Positions 3,403 through 42,670 of a stretch of 64,000 bases of DNA are shown one piece after another (the first letter of the stretch is position 1; every line of letters starts with the position of its first letter). Position numbers and translations under genes: made by a program. Origin of the DNA: a virus; the IMG/VR virus record IMGVR_UViG_3300032236_001457, positions 37,835-101,834 of that record, one strand, 5' to 3'. The notes under the pieces were generated by a model, which was given only the letters and a program-made list of their open reading frames with translations, searched no databases and was not told the origin of the DNA.

Positions 3403-3948
3403 TTAACCCTCGTAGATTGCAGAATTAGCACCGTGTTCAAATACCTCGGCGCTCTTAACCCTTACATTAGGATTAATAGGATATCGCATATTTCCGCTGG
3501 CCAACAATTCAGCCATCTTATCATAGCACATTTTAGCAAACATTTCGCATCCAACGCCTTCTACAATACGTAGATCGCATAGAGAGCCTCTTTGGTATGG
3601 CTCGAAATTATTTCTATCAACTTGCATTTCATCTGGGCCGGTTTCGGGCAAAGTCCAGTTTGTGTCAATTAATGCCATTTGTTTAAAAAATTCTAAATGA
3701 GGATCGTCATGGGCGATAACCAATGTGTGATCAAACATGTAGTCGGCCCAAGCCTTAAATGATTTTAGCCCGCCAAAATCCATACACCAGTTTTTGTCAT
3801 CCAGTGTTTCACATTCAAATACTAGCTTGATTCCGATACTGTATCCATGTAGTGTAGAACAGTGGCTATGACTAGCTCGCCACTGTCTAAAACAGCAGCT
3901 TAGTCCTCGATCATTCCCATAAGTCTTAACACTATAATATTTACTCAT
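3403..3948 (-). CDS. 6-carboxy-tetrahydropterin synthase-like protein (QueD family)
   Basis: T-fold enzyme of the QueD/PTPS family, which turns dihydroneopterin triphosphate into 6-carboxy-tetrahydropterin, the second step to preQ0. Seen: CFRQWRASHSHC with the presumed catalytic Cys, LHGYS in place of the usual LHGHSY, MDFGGLK, FDHTL, and C-terminal EHGANSAIYEG. The LHGY variant loses one classical zinc His. This longer form resembles versions I recall in T4-like marine phages. A GIY-YIG gene overlaps its start by 8 bases. FolE is encoded at 21.9-22.6 kb and could supply the substrate. Confidence 0.8.
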   Translation of the reverse strand: MSKYYSVKTYGNDRGLSCCFRQWRASHSHCSTLHGYSIGIKLVFECETLDDKNWCMDFGGLKSFKAWADYMFDHTLVIAHDDPHLEFFKQMALIDTNWTLPETGPDEMQVDRNNFEPYQRGSLCDLRIVEGVGCEMFAKMCYDKMAELLASGNMRYPINPNVRVKSAEVFEHGANSAIYEG

Positions 3949-4573
3949 ATTTAAACCCTTCTTTTCCTTTAATAATCCAATTTTTTATTGTATCCCATCT
4001 GACATTGTATGCAATGCCTGCTTCTTTAAGTGTAGTATATTTTCCTTGAGGGGTACTAACCGATATTGCCCTGCCATTATTTCCACCTAATACTTTCTTA
4101 CTTTGGTCTGGGCGCTTTTTTCCAGACCAAAATTTATTAAATCCTGTTTCAAAATTTCTTATTGATGCGTCCTGCCTTGTATAGGTTTTGGTAGATTTTG
4201 TTGATATCACAGAATCTCTAATTTGAATTTTAGATTTATTAGAATGAGAATGGCCTTTAAATGGTGGAGATTTTGGTATAAAGTTTTCAACTGTAAAGTG
4301 TTGGTTCATAAATGACTTATGAGTCACAACATTCATTCGTCGTAACACTTTTGCTTCCCAACTATTCATCGCACCTTGTGTTCTAAAGATGCGTCGAATT
4401 TCCCATACAAATGAATGTACCCCATAATTTTTAATTTCTCGTTTAACTACTTTCGAACTTGTAAAATAATGAGTCCAAAAATCCTCTAACGGAGGTTTTT
4501 TACTAGTTCTTTTTCCATAATACACTTTTTCAGTTGTTAAACATTTTAATAGATATGTGTAGAAATACATCAA
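3941..4573 (-). CDS. GIY-YIG homing endonuclease
   Basis: The N-terminal GIY-YIG module reads YTYLLKC followed by VYYGKR (residues 5-21), then a TSSKV segment and the EAKVLRR helix with the family Glu. The C-terminal part (GKYTTLKEAGIAYNVRWDT) looks like a NUMOD-type DNA-binding helix-turn-helix. It is free-standing and overlaps the QueD-like gene's start, so it probably shares its transcript. It resembles the gene at 31984 over the nuclease half (the YFTSSKV motif is in both), suggesting duplication of one mobile gene within this genome. Confidence 0.88.
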   Translation of the reverse strand: MMYFYTYLLKCLTTEKVYYGKRTSKKPPLEDFWTHYFTSSKVVKREIKNYGVHSFVWEIRRIFRTQGAMNSWEAKVLRRMNVVTHKSFMNQHFTVENFIPKSPPFKGHSHSNKSKIQIRDSVISTKSTKTYTRQDASIRNFETGFNKFWSGKKRPDQSKKVLGGNNGRAISVSTPQGKYTTLKEAGIAYNVRWDTIKNWIIKGKEGFKYE

Positions 4574-5494: not shown

Positions 5495-6286
5495 ATGTCA
5501 ACTACTTCTGGAGTATATAAAATAACATTAAAAAATGATGGTAGAATTTATATTGGTAGTTCGGCAGGAATAGAGGACAGATGGAACTGGCACATTCGCA
5601 GACAGATCCAACTTATAGGTAAAATGATTGAAAAATATGGAAAAGAATCTTTTACCTTTGAAATTATTGAAGAAGTTGAACCTGTTAAAGAAAAATTAAT
5701 CGAACGAGAACAATTCTATCTTGATACATTACAGCCATTTCCTTGGGTTAATAACAACGGTTTTAATTTGGCGCCAACTGCCTATTCACCACTTGGAATT
5801 AAACGATCTGAAGAAACTAAAAAGAAAATGAGCAGTTCATGGCATAAATCAAGAAATACTGTTGAATATAAACAACAGGCAAGCGATAGAATTAAAGGTG
5901 ATAAAAATCCAGCAAAGCGCCCTGATGTAGCCGCTAAAATATCTAAATCTAGGCTTGGACAAACTTGGGCCAACGATGCTGATAGAGTTGAGAAGCATCG
6001 ACAGGCAAGACTAGGTAAAACTCATTCTATAGAAACTATAGAAAAAATGCGAATTTCTCAACAAAAAAACAAGACAAGATCTGATGCTGCTAAAGAAAAA
6101 TTCTATCTCTCGCAAAGAACATTATACGAAATAACCAAGCCCGATCAATCTACATTTCAAATTTATAGCCGAGAATTAAAAGAGTATTGTAAAAATAATA
6201 AACTACAATATTCTAATTTAATTACAACGGCCAAAACAGACAAAGTGTATAAGAAAGGTTGGAAGGCTCGAATATTAGTAGACTAA
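5495..6286 (+). CDS. GIY-YIG homing endonuclease with NUMOD3 motifs
   Basis: [18 protein letters not shown] is the GIY-YIG core, followed by the conserved Arg (EDRWNWH) and Glu (EREQFYL). The middle holds NUMOD3-type DNA-binding motifs ([13 protein letters not shown] and [12 protein letters not shown]), and the C-terminus ends in a small DNA-binding module. It is transcribed against its neighbours, between clpP and a PGDYG-like gene, with its own late-type promoter. Free-standing homing endonuclease; no interrupted gene is visible beside it. Confidence 0.92.
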
Positions 6287-31318: not shown

Positions 31319-31915
31319 TTAATCCACAACGGGTCCATTGCCATTACGAAATCCCACAGTGCCACCTTCTGATTCAATACGCTTGATTACATCTTCAAAC
31401 AGTATTGGTGCAAAGTCGGTCTGTTCTACACAAACACTGTGATACCGCACATCAATCTGTTCATCAACGTATTCGGTATTACCGTAACGAGTTTTTACCA
31501 TAACACGGTTAGAGTGGAGATGACCGTGTATATTGACACCAAACCTGCCCAGACTTTCTGGATGGATGGGAATGTGAGTCAGTATCATGCCATTCAGCAC
31601 ATGACAGCCCCTAATGGCTCTAAAATATTGTCGATATTCGTCATCGGTGAAAATATCGTGATTACCACGAATCAGCACCTTGTCCCCATTCAGCCTGGCC
31701 AGAGTGGGAAATGCTTTACGATTAATTATCACATCCCCTAAAAAATAACACTTATCTTTGGTGCGAACTCTTTCATTGAACCGTTTAATGAGTTCTTCGT
31801 CCATTTCCTCGGGAGTGTTCCAAGGTCTTAATTTAGTAACACCGTCGTTTCGCATAAATCGGCAAACACCGGCATGTCCAAAATGAGGATCGGAATATAA
31901 AAAGGTAGCAGACAT
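31319..31915 (-). CDS. calcineurin-like metallophosphoesterase
   Basis: 198 residues with the full set of metal motifs: SDPHFGH, FLGDVI, LIRGNHDIF, LTHIPIH and NIHGHLHS. Small phage members may hydrolyse nucleotide or RNA phosphates. Its promoter at 31949 is a near-perfect sigma-70 type. Confidence 0.9.
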   Translation of the reverse strand: MSATFLYSDPHFGHAGVCRFMRNDGVTKLRPWNTPEEMDEELIKRFNERVRTKDKCYFLGDVIINRKAFPTLARLNGDKVLIRGNHDIFTDDEYRQYFRAIRGCHVLNGMILTHIPIHPESLGRFGVNIHGHLHSNRVMVKTRYGNTEYVDEQIDVRYHSVCVEQTDFAPILFEDVIKRIESEGGTVGFRNGNGPVVD

Positions 31916-31940
31916 AACAACATCTCCGTTGTGATAAAAT

Positions 31941-31948
31941 GATAAATA
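31941..31948 (+). promoter_or_regulatory. T4-type late promoter motif (GATAAATA)
   Basis: GATAAATA lies 35 bases before the ATG of the GIY-YIG gene and just beside the opposing sigma-70 promoter, giving a bidirectional early/late control region. Confidence 0.45.
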
Positions 31949-31977
31949 ATTATAACATAAAACAAGTTAGGAGTCAA
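31949..31977 (-). promoter_or_regulatory. sigma-70-type promoter of the phosphoesterase gene
   Basis: Minus strand TTGACT, 17-base spacer, TATAAT; its -35 overlaps the ribosome-binding region of the divergent GIY-YIG gene. Confidence 0.78.
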
Positions 31978-31983
31978 CCAAAA

Positions 31984-32721
31984 ATGGCCTATGTTTATAA
32001 AGTAATTTTTTTACCTACAACCCAATACTATATTGGATATCGGGGCAGTAAAAAAGCAACACCAGATGACTTATTTACAACATATTTTACATCAAGTAAA
32101 GTAATAGCAAATCTAATTAAAGAGCACGGCGTAGATAAATTTTCTAAAGAAATATTGGCAGAGTTTGAAACTGGTATCGAAGCATATGAATATGAACAAC
32201 AGTTGCTTCGAGAACACAATGTAGAGGCAAATACACAGATGTTAAACAAACGCCTTACCTCCTGTGCATTAGATTCTTTTAAAAAACATACAGAAAAATC
32301 TAAAACACAAATGAGCAATAGCAGAAAATCTCTTTGGGAAGATCCTGATTACAGATCAAAAGTATCTAATTCTATTAGACAGTCTTGGGAAGATCCTGAT
32401 AGAATCAAAAGTTTGCAAACCGATGAGTTTCGACTACTAAAAAGCCAACAATCAAAAAAGTTATGGAAAGATCCTGCCTATTTAGAAAATTATAATCAGG
32501 CACACGCCAAAGCGGTAGACGATCCGGACTATCGAGTATGGCACAGTAATCACAAAACTGAATTATGGAAAGATCCTATTTATAAACAGCAACAAAATGA
32601 ATCTCGCAAAAAACGATGGGCGGATCCGGAATATAAAAAAATGATGAGTGATCGTCGTAAGGCCAAGTGGGCCGATCCTGAATACAAGGCCATGATGCTA
32701 GCCTCAAGAAAGAAAAGTTAA
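31984..32721 (+). CDS. GIY-YIG homing endonuclease with W-x-DP-x-Y repeats
   Basis: Start ATG 31984 follows AGGAG. VYKVIFLPTTQYYIGYRGSK is the GIY-YIG core; YFTSSKVIANLIKEHG and the Glu helix (EYEQQLL) follow. The C-terminal half is a run of about seven repeats of W-(E/K/A)-D-P-x-Y spaced 18-22 residues, a repeated DNA-binding helix of NUMOD type. It sits at the edge of the tRNA array. Confidence 0.9.
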   Translation: MAYVYKVIFLPTTQYYIGYRGSKKATPDDLFTTYFTSSKVIANLIKEHGVDKFSKEILAEFETGIEAYEYEQQLLREHNVEANTQMLNKRLTSCALDSFKKHTEKSKTQMSNSRKSLWEDPDYRSKVSNSIRQSWEDPDRIKSLQTDEFRLLKSQQSKKLWKDPAYLENYNQAHAKAVDDPDYRVWHSNHKTELWKDPIYKQQQNESRKKRWADPEYKKMMSDRRKAKWADPEYKAMMLASRKKS

Positions 32722-32728
32722 AAATATA

Positions 32729-32802
32729 TGGTAGCCCCTGACGGTAACGCTCCGCCGTATCCCACGTGTAAGGAGGGTGTTCTGCTTTTAAACTAAGGGG
32801 CC
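32729..32802 (-). tRNA. degenerate tRNA-Val(UAC)-like sequence
   Basis: GGCCCCT pairs with AGGGGCT, followed by A and CCA, and a loop CTTACAC gives anticodon UAC with U33 and A37 in place. The T-arm is not recognisable (no TTCRA loop) and the anticodon stem has a T-T mismatch. Directly 5' lies an orphan tRNA D-arm (AACTCAGTTGGTAGAG, about 32804-32822) with no body. Probably a decayed or recombined tRNA. Confidence 0.4.
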
Positions 32803-32999: not shown

Positions 33000-33242
33000 T
33001 TACTTAGTCTTTGTTAGGGGTGTTCGAACTTTTTTTAGGTATTCACGTCCGACCAATCCTGCTTCAATTTCTTGAAGTGCGCTAACGATTGGACCGTTGT
33101 TGGTATTTACTCGCTTGGCATCGCCGCGTTTAAGTTCTCGAGCACGAGCAGCAGCAATCAACACCATGTCAAATTTATTACCAACTTGGTGGGCAGCACG
33201 AATAACATCTACACTATTGGTCAACGCTTTAACTTTATTCAC
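33000..33242 (-). CDS. rpoZ: RNA polymerase omega-subunit-like protein
   Basis: 80 residues. GNKFDMVLIAAARARELKRG (22-41) and NNGPIVSALQEIEAGLV (48-64) reproduce the two most conserved parts of bacterial omega (GNRFDLVLVAARRARQ and N-D-K-x-x-V-x-A-L-x-E-I-x-x-G). Omega clamps the beta-prime subunit and takes part in ppGpp binding. Lying between phage tRNA genes, it could remodel host polymerase. A host-derived copy is possible, but sequence drift from typical omega suggests long residence in phage. Confidence 0.82.
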   Translation of the reverse strand: MNKVKALTNSVDVIRAAHQVGNKFDMVLIAAARARELKRGDAKRVNTNNGPIVSALQEIEAGLVGREYLKKVRTPLTKTK

Positions 33243-33651: not shown

Positions 33652-33737
33652 TGGTGGGTAGCCAGGGAATCGAACCCCGTATGTCTAAAGACGCCGGATT
33701 TACAATCCAGTGCAGTCACCAATGCTGCTCGCTACCC
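33652..33737 (-). tRNA. tRNA-Tyr(GUA)
   Basis: Class II: acceptor GGGTAGC/GCTACCC, A73, encoded CCA, loop TTGTAAA (GUA). Its first two bases overlap the outer arm of the nested inverted repeat next to it. Confidence 0.9.
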
Positions 33738-33969
33738 ATATTGAAACACACTGCGGAAGGGCTTGCACCTTCACTTTGGCTTTCCTTTCGGATACCCCAT
33801 CAAAGACCTGTTGCGGACAATGTGTTTCCATATGGTGTCAGTGTTGCTGACTCGGGAATCCCGACGCCCAGTGCTAAGAGAACACCTATTCGTCACCCTA
33901 CTCTTACCATATGGAAACACACTATGCCACGCTCTGAACCTGGACTCTTAGTAATGTGTTTCAATATGG
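33736..33969. repeat. nested pair of perfect 15-base inverted repeats in the tRNA array
   Basis: Outer arms 33736-33750 and 33955-33969 are exact reverse complements, and inner arms 33821-33835 and 33907-33921 are too. The two pairs differ from each other at one position as matched base pairs (T-A versus C-G), which argues for the nested fold, although each left arm can also pair with its neighbour with one mismatch. Between the arms lie further hairpins (for example GAAGG-TGCAAGC-CCTTC and a GAAA-capped stem on the minus strand). The right flanks of both units carry a GTCA...TGAC hairpin. No tRNA, CRISPR or known ribozyme matched. The stretch to 34058 holds no gene. Confidence 0.7.
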
Positions 33970-34058
33970 TGTCACTCTCCTGACCACTTTTAACGGAGGG
34001 GGTAGAGCCTTGAGTGACGTGTCTTAGACAGGCTTTATTCCTGGTTACGTAACCATTT

Positions 34059-34143
34059 TGGTGGGAATGGTGAGACTCGAACTCACACGTCTTTCAACGC
34101 CAGAACCTAAATCTGGTGCGGCTGCCAATTACGCCACATTCCC
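34059..34143 (-). tRNA. tRNA-Leu(UAG)
   Basis: Class II: acceptor GGGAATG/CATTCCC, anticodon loop TTTAGGT (UAG), variable arm GTTGAAAGAC, T-loop TTCGAGT, encoded CCA. Confidence 0.92.
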
Positions 34144-34155
34144 AATAATCTTTTT

Positions 34156-34206
34156 TGGTGCCCAGGGCGGGACTCGAACCCGCATGCCATTACAGCGAGA
34201 GATTTT
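34156..34206 (-). tRNA. 3' half of tRNA-Leu(UAA), downstream exon of a group I intron
   Basis: Reads AAAATCTCTCG, a class II variable arm, T-arm GCGGG-TTCGAGT-CCCGC, acceptor strand CCTGGGC, A73 and CCA. The junction ...TAAG/AAAATC is the position, between U34 and A35, where the classical tRNA-Leu(UAA) group I intron sits. No 5' half (acceptor GCCCAGG, Leu-type D-arm, GAGATT) was found upstream in the window. Confidence 0.75.
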
Positions 34207-34399
34207 CTTACCACTATAGTTTTCACTACCCTTTCAGTTTGTGGTCTGGACTATACCTTGACCGTTGCTTTCGCTTTAGGTCCTCGCCGTCTAGTCTCTA
34301 CACGTTCCTAACATTTCTATTAGGCTTCGCTCGGTATTAGCATTTTACAGCCTTCACCGAATTTGACGAGTTCTACTCCTGCCGTTTCCTGCAGGGCAC
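34207..34399 (-). other. group I intron catalytic core
   Basis: On the minus strand, in order: P2-like hairpin CCTGC-AGGAAACG-GCAGG, element P AAATTCGGTGAAGGC (34350-34364), Q AATACCGAGCGAAGCC (34323-34338), a P6 stem CCTAA/TTAGG, R GTGTAGAGACTAGACGG (34287-34303), S AAGGTATAGTCCAGACC (34243-34259), P9 with a GAAA-capped TAGT/ACTA stem, and terminal G at 34207. Order and wording match phage/cyanobacterial group IA-type introns. P1 and the 5' splice site are not clear because an HNH gene ends right at its 5' side. Confidence 0.82.
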
Positions 34400-35056
34400 T
34401 CAAATTTCTTTCAAGTCTCTTATGTCTACCGATTTCATCACCCGGGCGGTTAATCGTTTTAATCTTTCGTAGTTTCCACCTTTAGCAGCAAGACCCACTT
34501 CTATTAACGCTTGTCTAATGTTACTACATCTTTCATATGCTGTCAATAGTTCTTGGTCAGTTACTTTAGGTTTTCCACTATTTTTATTTCTACCTTTGTA
34601 AGTATCAGTTTGGCTATGACAATTAGGGCAGAGGTATCTTAAATTTGTTAATCTGTTATCACGATTATTACCGTTGATATGATCAAGATCTAAAACAATA
34701 GTTTCTCCACACCATTCATTAATACCGCACTTGATACATTTATATTCTAACAAATTATCTTTTACGATCCTTTGCTTAACCATTTCGTTTGAATACAAAC
34801 TATTTTCTGTAAAGACCAATTCATTTGGGATTAAATTTTTACCTTTTGCCCAATTCATTTTATCTTTAGTTTCCTGCGGTAACCTGTTATAAACAGTTGT
34901 CGACGCAGGTCTTTTATTAGCAGTATAAGACAATTTGGTTTTTTCAGAATTGATTTTTTTCAAAACTTCACAACCAGATGGTCTTTTACTACAACAATTT
35001 TTACCATTTTTAAGAGTAAAATTTGCGGCTCTACTACATCCATAATCACATAACAT
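34400..35056 (-). CDS. HNH endonuclease, probably intron-encoded
   Basis: 218 residues. The HNH core is KCGINEWCGETIVLDLDHIN followed by NGNNRDNRLTNLRYLCPNCH, with two CxxC zinc pairs. The N-terminal region carries a further Cys pair, and the C-terminus a helix-turn-helix-like ERCSNIRQALIEVGLA. AGGAG precedes the ATG. Its stop directly abuts the group I core, and it is the first gene after the tRNA-array promoter. Confidence 0.9.
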   Translation of the reverse strand: MLCDYGCSRAANFTLKNGKNCCSKRPSGCEVLKKINSEKTKLSYTANKRPASTTVYNRLPQETKDKMNWAKGKNLIPNELVFTENSLYSNEMVKQRIVKDNLLEYKCIKCGINEWCGETIVLDLDHINGNNRDNRLTNLRYLCPNCHSQTDTYKGRNKNSGKPKVTDQELLTAYERCSNIRQALIEVGLAAKGGNYERLKRLTARVMKSVDIRDLKEI

Positions 35057-37480: not shown

Positions 37481-38166
37481 TACTTTACTGCGGCTTCAAT
37501 TAAGTATTTTTTGATACAGACTAAATCGCTTTCACCATGCGGATGGTCAATTACTGCTTGGAGATCGATTACTTCGGTGTCAAAGTTTTGTTGATGTAGC
37601 CATTCTTCTAGTTCGTTCTTTAGAATATGTCCTTTGTAGTAGGGCCTCAGTGCTGCTTCGGCATGGATCATTTTGATATGGTCGATGTAAGTGCCCATAC
37701 CTTTTAGTGCTTTAAGTTCAACTCCTTGGACATCCATCCAAACAAGATCTACCTTTTCCACACCCAACTCACACAATACATTATCAATTCTTCTAGCACG
37801 AATCCCGGAGATTTTATCCCATGTGCAAGACCTGTATCCATACTGCCAACCGGCGTTGATTTCAATGGGTTCCAGCATAGAGGAAGCGCCTTGATTTTCG
37901 TTCACGATCCAAAAGTCTACAATAGATTCTTCGTCGCTACAAGCATATTCATGCACTTCGATATTGGGATAGTTTTTGCTTAATTCATAGCAATATTGAA
38001 ATTGTTTAGGATTGGGTTCGAAAGCAATTATTCTTGAGCTAGGAAATGCCTGGCTAAGCTGGATGCTTTCTTCAAGATCTCTAGTCCCAACATCTAGTAT
38101 TACTTCTGGGGAATAATTACCCAATATCTTTTTTACTGACTTTATAAAATTTCCAGCAACCGGCAT
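37480..38166 (-). CDS. FkbM-family methyltransferase
   Basis: 228 residues with motif I EVILDVGTRDLEESIQLSQ, IIAFEPNPKQFQYCYEL, and the FkbM hallmark VDLVWMDVQGVELKALKGMG. FkbM enzymes O-methylate sugars or polyketides. AAAGGA precedes the ATG. Followed directly by the second methyltransferase and a GT17 gene, suggesting sequential glycan methylation. Confidence 0.88.
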   Translation of the reverse strand: MPVAGNFIKSVKKILGNYSPEVILDVGTRDLEESIQLSQAFPSSRIIAFEPNPKQFQYCYELSKNYPNIEVHEYACSDEESIVDFWIVNENQGASSMLEPIEINAGWQYGYRSCTWDKISGIRARRIDNVLCELGVEKVDLVWMDVQGVELKALKGMGTYIDHIKMIHAEAALRPYYKGHILKNELEEWLHQQNFDTEVIDLQAVIDHPHGESDLVCIKKYLIEAAVK

Positions 38167-41479: not shown

Positions 41480-42670
41480 TTATGTCGAGATCGCTGCCGA
41501 GACACTAGTTCCCATATTTGATTCAGGCAACTTGATCCACGTGGTCAACGCACCAACCTGCACTGGAGAATTATAATCGGTAGAACCGCCAAGACCCAAC
41601 TGACCATAATATCCACGGCCCCATGCCCATAATGTACCGTTAGTTTTGAGAGCAAGCGTATGATCATACCCGGTAGCAACACTGAGCCAATTGGTCAATG
41701 CACCAACTTGAGTGGGAGAAGATCGACCTAACGCATCACCTACTCCTAGTGGGGTACCATCACCCCACGCCCATAGTGTACCATCTGTTTTTACCGCAAG
41801 TGTGTGATAACGAGATGCAGTGACACTTAACCAATTAGTTAACGCTCCGACCTGTACTGGCGATTGATAATAAGTTAGATTACCTAATCCTAATTCACCG
41901 CTGGAATTTTTACCCCATGTCCATAATGTCCCATCAGACTTGACAGCAGCCATATGATAGGTTCCACAGGCAACATCTGTCCATGTAGTCAACGCTCCTA
42001 CTTGGTTTGGGGAAGATTTCACAGTATATGAACCAATCCCTAGCTGCCCACTGCTGTTCTGTCCCCACGTCCACAATGTCCCATTGGTCTTAATGGCAGC
42101 AGTGTTGAGCTTGCCTTTGACAATCTTCGACCAATTGGTTAACGCACCGACTTGTTTGGGTGAACTATAGGCTGTTGTATTGCCTAAACCGAGATTTCCA
42201 GTATTTCCCGATCCCCATGACCATAAAGTACCATCAGTCTTGACAGCAGCCATACTGATCAATGAAGTACTGCCCTTACTGACAGAAATCTTACTCCAAT
42301 TAGTTAGTGCGCCAACCTGCTTAGGAGAACTGTAACCAGTTATGTTACCTAATCCAAGGTTTCCAGATCCTCCACTACCCCATGTCCATAATGTGCCATC
42401 GGTTTTAACGGCACCCATACTGTATCCACCGGTGGCAATGGCTGTCCAAGTGGTTAATGCGCCAACTTGGTTTGGAGAATATTTTATTACCTTGTTGTTA
42501 AGACCTAGTTGACCACTGCTATTAGTACCCCATGTATACAATTTTCCATTGGTGGCACCGCCTCCGCCGCCACCTCCGCCACCTGCTACAGGTCTCGGTG
42601 TGGCTGTCATTTTATGAGCTCTTGTAGGACCTCCGGTTCCAAATGTACCTTTTCTCCAGATCGTTGCCAT
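41480..42670 (-). CDS. RCC1-repeat beta-propeller protein
   Basis: 396 residues, nearly all made of about seven repeats of roughly 48 residues with the core LYTWGTNSSGQLGLN...SPNQVGALT, the RCC1/BNR blade pattern. The N-terminus has a Gly run after PRPVAGGG. No signal peptide. In phages RCC1 proteins are thought to be virion or fibre parts that bind host surface. Confidence 0.88.
   Translation of the reverse strand: MATIWRKGTFGTGGPTRAHKMTATPRPVAGGGGGGGGGATNGKLYTWGTNSSGQLGLNNKVIKYSPNQVGALTTWTAIATGGYSMGAVKTDGTLWTWGSGGSGNLGLGNITGYSSPKQVGALTNWSKISVSKGSTSLISMAAVKTDGTLWSWGSGNTGNLGLGNTTAYSSPKQVGALTNWSKIVKGKLNTAAIKTNGTLWTWGQNSSGQLGIGSYTVKSSPNQVGALTTWTDVACGTYHMAAVKSDGTLWTWGKNSSGELGLGNLTYYQSPVQVGALTNWLSVTASRYHTLAVKTDGTLWAWGDGTPLGVGDALGRSSPTQVGALTNWLSVATGYDHTLALKTNGTLWAWGRGYYGQLGLGGSTDYNSPVQVGALTTWIKLPESNMGTSVSAAIST

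Follow-up and report, generated by a model that had tools for sequence, protein, structure and literature searches.

What kind of RNA is built by two perfect inverted repeats that lie one inside the other in a phage array of transfer RNA (tRNA) genes, directly at the start of a tRNA? The question is raised by a 64,000-nucleotide stretch of virus DNA (positions 37,835 to 101,834 of IMG/VR record IMGVR_UViG_3300032236_001457; the whole stretch is called the window here). Its outer arm pair (33736-33750/33955-33969) is perfect over 15 nucleotides (nt) with 204 nt between the arms, and its inner pair (33821-33836/33906-33921) is perfect over 16 nt with 69 nt between them. A sequence-only reading had described these pairs, which differ at a single position (T-A versus C-G), as one nested structured element of no known RNA family, and the arms and their one difference are present in the DNA. 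Relatives of the element on well over 100 IMG/VR phage contigs lead to another answer. Judged from sequence, the hairpins are a widespread, so far undescribed class of phage RNA hairpins on tRNA CCA tails, here termed CCA clamps, and the window holds two of them. We found no description of such hairpins in the open-access literature.

Each clamp has a 5' arm, F, and a 3' arm, R, which enclose a loop that we call the cargo. In the window F is CCATATnGAAACACATT and R is AGTGTGTTTCnATATGG; they pair over 17 base pairs (bp), with a U-G pair close to the loop. F ends in CATT and R begins with AGTG, a signature that gives each arm its direction, so that the four arms read F-R-F-R, which is two tandem hairpins. 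The tRNAs of the array are on the minus strand, which was therefore taken as sense.

We gathered 80 related virus loci by means of a neighbouring gene (198 amino acids (aa), 31319-31915) and further loci by means of the R arm, for which the figures are those among the matches listed. An automatic search of these loci, on IMG/VR contigs of up to 525 kilobases (kb), returned at least 292 sense F-R hairpins, a count drawn from contigs that are not independent and from a sample gathered in part by the motif itself. Of 252 hairpins that follow a tRNA, 145 have the start of F exactly at the CCA of an ARAGORN tRNA. An unbiased test took the 17 nt from the CCA of every CCA-ending tRNA and looked for the segment that pairs with them best over 17 bp, with exchanged downstream sequences as the control. 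A hairpin scoring at least 15 of 17 and starting at the CCA was found for 163 of 2117 such tRNAs, compared with 4 in the control. In the loci gathered only through the protein, a clamp is present in 19 of the 59 stretches with tRNAs.

The stem is a nearly perfect double helix of 17-19 bp, as expected of an RNase III processing stem. Covariation was assessed on arms located through cargo homology and so independently of their pairing, and gave 245 two-sided, 70 one-sided and 165 pair-breaking changes, some of the last stemming from register shifts and spurious families. Arms pair with their own partner at 15.4 of 17 positions and with arms swapped within the family at 11.8 of 17. Stems of unrelated sequence stay paired, as in CCATTTGTTTTGTTGAT/GTCAGCAAAACAAATGG and CCAAACTAAAACATATT/AGTATGTTTTAGTTTGG. 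Leaving positions 8 and 16 aside, and with a score that treats both as mismatches, the sense strand has 57 G-U against 10 A-C (p = 4e-9), and this excess of wobble pairs indicates that the molecule that folds is the sense RNA. At position 16 the pair is U-G 113 times, and its reverse, C-A, is missing from the types listed there. Position 8 is an exception to the general G-U excess, being A-C in 75 of 178 CCA-anchored hairpins (loci L002-L204), mainly after tRNA-Lys(UUU).

The helix has a fixed register on the CCA. Pairing continues past the CCA to the discriminator, position 73, in 75% and to position 72 in 65%, and further in only in 30-36%; the tRNA 3' end at the stem start is often U72-N73-CCA. 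At the other end, the first two nucleotides of the following tRNA also form the end of the 3' arm in 44 of 167 cases. A stem with no preceding tRNA may start TTA and end TAA, which means that both stem ends change together. Hairpins that do not adjoin a tRNA are preceded by 7-bp acceptor-like stems more often than controls (12/62 versus 2.9 and 10/56 versus 1.8), and non-tRNA RNAs before F have an acceptor-like stem or a hairpin directly before the discriminator, again more commonly than controls.

The enclosed RNA is exchangeable. Cargoes range from 4 to 217 nt, and since loops of 4-9 nt exist, the stem can occur nearly without cargo. Among 30 tRNA-Lys hairpins whose arms are identical, 26 unrelated cargoes occur. 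The 161 CCA-anchored cargoes fall into 104 clusters, 25 of them recurrent, and 17 of these 25 follow at least two tRNA isotypes. Some cargoes are clearly structured: in an alignment of 10 sequences of about 210 nt (A3), 22 of 45 pairs show two-sided changes, paired cells amount to 96.4% (85.0% when shuffled, about 40% when slid), and the covariance model recovers a second subgroup with E values down to 2e-13. Some other cargoes hold a T-arm.

Clamps are also unevenly distributed over tRNAs. They follow tRNA-Lys(UUU) in 47 of 71 cases, Glu(UUC) in 36 of 92 and Gln(UUG) in 21 of 77, so that 104 of 240 tRNAs with UUN anticodons are clamped versus 51 of 1780 others (odds ratio 26, p = 2e-67). The protein-collected loci show the same bias (13 of 38 versus 5 of 396, p = 1e-11), though both p-values are too small, as dereplication was by sequence and not by phage lineage. 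The clamped tRNA-Lys bodies are very diverse. On this comparative evidence we regard as established the helix, its fixed position on the CCA, folding of the sense strand, exchangeable cargo and the preference for Lys(UUU), Glu(UUC) and Gln(UUG).

In the window, the two clamps and the RNAs around them are arranged as follows, in sense order.

34059 to 34143, minus strand: tRNA-Leu(UAG), upstream in the sense direction (ARAGORN; Rfam tRNA, 52.4 bits)
33967 to 34018, minus strand: tRNA-like RNA 1, 52 nt, recognised from the sequence
33953 to 33969, minus strand: 5' arm F of hairpin 1, CCATATTGAAACACATT, beginning on the CCA of tRNA-like RNA 1
33924 to 33952, minus strand: cargo of hairpin 1, ACTAAGAGTCCAGGTTCAGAGCGTGGCAT, 29 nt, which recurs elsewhere
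33907 to 33923, minus strand: 3' arm R of hairpin 1, AGTGTGTTTCCATATGG
33833 to 33906, minus strand: spacer RNA between the hairpins, 74 nt, conserved in other loci
33819 to 33835, minus strand: 5' arm F of hairpin 2, CCATATGGAAACACATT
33753 to 33818, minus strand: cargo of hairpin 2, 66 nt, holding the T-arm-like and GAAA-capped hairpins
33736 to 33752, minus strand: 3' arm R of hairpin 2, AGTGTGTTTCAATATGG, whose final two G are nucleotides 1-2 of tRNA-Tyr
33652 to 33737, minus strand: tRNA-Tyr(GUA), downstream in the sense direction (ARAGORN; Rfam tRNA, 43.3 bits)

Both F arms begin on the CCA of non-tRNA RNAs, and each hairpin has 16 of 17 standard pairs. The first of these RNAs has a 7-bp acceptor-like stem (34012-34018/33971-33977, GTCACTC/GAGTGAC), a discriminator A at 33970 and CCA at 33967-33969; a homologue search for it gave none. 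The second, the spacer RNA, ends in a hairpin (GTCAG-CAACA-CTGAC) followed by A and then by the CCA that starts hairpin 2. It is kept in seven other loci (L091, L139 (96%), L085, L145, L146, L155, L165), and 3 of its 12 predicted pairs have changed on both sides. The cargo of hairpin 1 recurs at nine other loci with 97-100% identity over 26-29 nt, and the upstream contexts there include tRNA-Lys, Glu, Leu and Pro; the sequences of this family are too uniform for covariation. No homologue was found for the cargo of hairpin 2, in which both interior hairpins of the sequence-only reading are present (GAAGG-TGCAAGC-CCTTC and TCC-GAAA-GGA). The exact motif has no other copy in the window or in the 101.8-kb record.

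The earlier description of a structured RNA outside known families holds: the folding energy of the 240-nt sense strand is -93.0 kcal/mol (z = -6.4; none of 200 shuffles was as stable), and Rfam 15 gave no family above gathering score in 33738-33975, while the tRNAs around it matched. Rfam 15 likewise placed no cargo or clamp above threshold in 15 relative loci. Adjacency to tRNA-Tyr also stands, in the stronger form of an overlap, since the outer arm shares two bases (33737-33736) with the tRNA start.

The anatomy is thus well supported by comparison, and from it we infer a function. We put at roughly 45% the probability that the clamp is a processing and carrier module that would release both tRNAs and cargo RNAs. 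The polycistronic array transcript would fold into tRNAs and clamps, the 3' end of a tRNA or tRNA-like RNA beginning a helix of 17-19 bp around a small cargo that often has structure of its own. The stem might be opened by a host nuclease that cuts double strands, for instance RNase III, exonucleases would trim the remnant of the 5' arm back to the CCA, and RNase P would cut at the next tRNA. The cargo could then be freed, or retained as a small RNA protected by its stem. A helix that runs from one mature 3' end to the mature 5' start of the next tRNA is well placed to separate the two, and a processing role beside tRNA-Tyr, raised already from the sequence, is plausible. The cargoes most likely act as small regulatory or decoy RNAs in infection, and they may move between clamps through recombination in the common arms and the flanking tRNAs.

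Several observations weigh against this account. Most tRNAs of the same arrays have no clamp, which means that tRNA processing in general does not depend on it, and plain processing leaves the UUN preference without explanation. Phage-encoded RNase III had to be rejected as the processing enzyme, with its gene in 0 of 20 clamp-family records, so a host enzyme must serve. The mean folding z of the cargoes is -0.5, slightly better than shuffled, with 11% below -2, and many cargoes may therefore be weakly structured. In the window itself, position 7 is mismatched in both clamps, and the nested fold is 14.5 kcal/mol better than the tandem one (-93.0 versus -78.5).

The UUN preference helps to make one alternative worth testing. 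The clamp may shield the CCA from host defence: in the precursor it would conceal the NCCA and open pair 1:72, so that maturation is delayed or the tail protected. Alternatively, the cargo would be a decoy for a tRNA-targeting defence. Clamps would then sit on the tRNAs that such defences favour, and cargo diversity would reflect an arms race. The UUN bias in both samples, the pairing of positions 72-73 and the different cargoes between identical arms all fit this proposal. Suitable host effectors exist, as Cas12a3 cuts tRNA CCA tails (PMC12851939) and effectors that cut tRNA anticodons, e.g. that of tRNA-Lys, are known (PMC11042736, PMC12409363). Against it, a direct link to a defence system is absent from the evidence, and the clamped tRNA nearly always lacks a duplicate in its stretch and has a normal anticodon loop. 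It probably serves in translation, for which it must be released. The single copies also dispose of decoy tRNA duplicates. A codon-like match of arm to anticodon (AAA after Lys, GAA after Glu) was rejected because it fails for Gln, Leu and others. We consider the shield unlikely, while it is the most interesting of the rivals and the one with the highest stakes. In its boldest form, which we think distinctly unlikely, large phages would attach a highly variable set of small RNAs to the CCA of defence-favoured tRNAs (Lys UUU, Glu UUC, Gln UUG), with the clamp guarding the tail and the cargo acting as an anti-defence RNA; if true, this would be a cassette system built of RNA.

The recurrence of the same cargoes in different tRNA contexts, the inverted termini they have in common and the homing endonuclease genes nearby (GIY-YIG at 31939-32721, HNH at 34400-35056) could also be read at the DNA level. 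The clamps would then be mobile cassettes, with terminal repeats like those of miniature inverted-repeat transposable elements (MITEs) or with recombination sites, and RNA pairing would be incidental. However, their orientation is fixed to the tRNA sense, as the U-G at position 16 shows, and insertion in both orientations, as with MITEs, was not seen. The excess of G-U over A-C, the pairing kept by unrelated stem sequences and the register fixed on the CCA likewise contradict a purely DNA-level reading as the whole explanation, which is quite improbable; mobility on top of an RNA function is likely.

We judge it very improbable that the locus encodes one nested RNA, perhaps switching between nested and tandem folds. 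Both nested stems in the window are perfect and their fold is the better one by energy, but of 61 consecutive hairpin pairs, 47 pair better in tandem, 12 equally well either way and only 2 better when nested, and the window is among these 2. This ratio is inflated because the set was gathered by tandem pairing; single hairpins lacking a second pair are common, however, and support the tandem reading independently. In the homologous locus L091, nested and tandem pairing are about equal. The single nested element is therefore contradicted as a conserved property of the family, and the nested fold may form in the window as a local peculiarity. The apparent compensated base pair gives way as well: the stem tolerates changes at position 7, where 3 of the 8 copies in the window's cargo family have a mismatch. 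Arm exchange or template switching between its two hairpins could explain the window's arm pattern. Decayed tRNA genes or intrinsic terminators are effectively refuted: despite the T-arm-like hairpin in cargo 2, the acceptor-like stem upstream and the T-arm in some other cargoes, the tRNA covariance model, run over 1661 bases, matched nothing in 33738-33975 at E values of up to 10, and the stems are followed by no T-run, the first leading into TAAGAG and the second directly into tRNA-Tyr.

Known systems share parts of this anatomy. The 16S and 23S ribosomal RNA processing stems, which are cut by RNase III, are likewise inverted repeats around an RNA in a polycistronic stable-RNA transcript; the clamp stem differs in starting on a tRNA CCA and enclosing a small, exchangeable RNA, and its cleavage is only proposed. 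T4-type mobile regulatory cassettes (PeSL) are also exchangeable stem-loop modules in phage genomes; these have an early promoter and are located between protein genes, whereas clamps sit on tRNA CCA ends. In the T-box antiterminator, a UGG(N) strand pairs with the tRNA NCCA much as R does, but the clamp pairs in cis in the precursor, and AAA, GAA or CAA at F8-10 do not track the anticodon. Transcribed spacers of bacterial tRNA operons, such as Escherichia coli 3'ETS-leuZ, act as sponges. Such a spacer adjoins the 3' end of a tRNA, is excised from the precursor and may have a regulatory role of its own; it has no long CCA-capturing stem, no exchangeable cargo and no recurrence across genomes with fixed arms. 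Papers that mention 3'ETS-leuZ are PMC6191717 and PMC5222698. RNAs C and D of T4 (rnaC, rnaD) are small non-tRNA RNAs within a phage tRNA array, and were rejected as relatives since no CCA-anchored stem follows any tRNA in the T4 tRNA region.

The window array has other features of its own. A tRNA at 32732-32802 is detected by Rfam (42.8 bits) and missed by ARAGORN. At 34157-35056, a tRNA 3' half (GGCATGCGGGTTCGAGTCCCGCCCTGGGCACCA in sense) lies beside the HNH endonuclease gene and a group I intron match (34225-34422; 45 bits, slightly below the Rfam cut-off); this is probably a tRNA split by a group I intron, a prediction in which the 3' exon alone is identified. Within the array, on the minus strand, 33000-33242 encodes an 80-aa protein with a match to RNA polymerase Rpb6/omega (Pfam PF01192, E 1e-11). 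The GIY-YIG gene adjoining the array is SegE-like, and others of this kind are at 3941-4573 and 5495-6286. Farther away, the protein of 14264-14860 matches a PHROG of phage protein kinase, host transcription inhibitor and RNase III regulator (E 3e-15), and 41480-42670, in a region with many glycosyltransferase-like genes, encodes a 396-aa protein made up of RCC1-like repeats. In the related phage contigs L011, L013, L014 and L021, ARAGORN reports tRNA-Pyl(cta), likely amber-suppressor tRNAs, and L026 carries a transfer-messenger RNA besides.

Outside the metagenomic contigs, DNA-similarity searches of INPHARED with the window element and with the largest cargo found no relatives. Bacterial genomes gave nine matches to the 3' arm. 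Only one of these contigs, from a Lac Pavin metagenome-assembled genome (MAG) and with 15 tRNAs, has a paired hairpin, and it is perhaps phage DNA; on a short Polynucleobacter MAG contig the arm is cut by the contig end and runs into a tRNA. Clamps occur, unannotated, in cultured phages of Aeromonas and Vibrio. Vibrio phage phiKT1024 and its relatives have a short-loop clamp after tRNA-Lys(UUU). A clamp around a 110-nt cargo is present in Aeromonas phages Aswh_1, where it follows tRNA-Leu(UAA), and ZPAH1, and Aeh1, Ah1, PX29, AsFcp_1 and AsFcp_2 carry this cargo in a different, again fully paired stem, so that one alignment (A1) holds a single cargo in two stem versions. Clamps of the Aeh1 type stand after an unannotated CCA-tailed tRNA-like RNA (GGGGACGTAG...CGTCTCCACCA; about 313-387 of L226 in Aeh1, and in L225 and L227-L229), and in Aeromonas phage TSW001 both Leu(UAA) and Arg(CCU) are followed by perfect 17-bp clamps. 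The 2006 Aeh1 paper lists the tRNAs, and the words hairpin, stem-loop and inverted repeat are absent from it (PMC1524935).

Because cultured Aeromonas and Vibrio phages share the architecture, roles in processing, CCA protection and anti-defence are directly testable. Clamps add a large unannotated set of RNAs to phage tRNA arrays, whose role is debated, and they do so with a strict architecture, the stem set on the CCA and often ending on the next tRNA, and with a bias to UUN tRNAs. Phages may have in this anatomy a new means of processing, protecting or exploiting their tRNAs.
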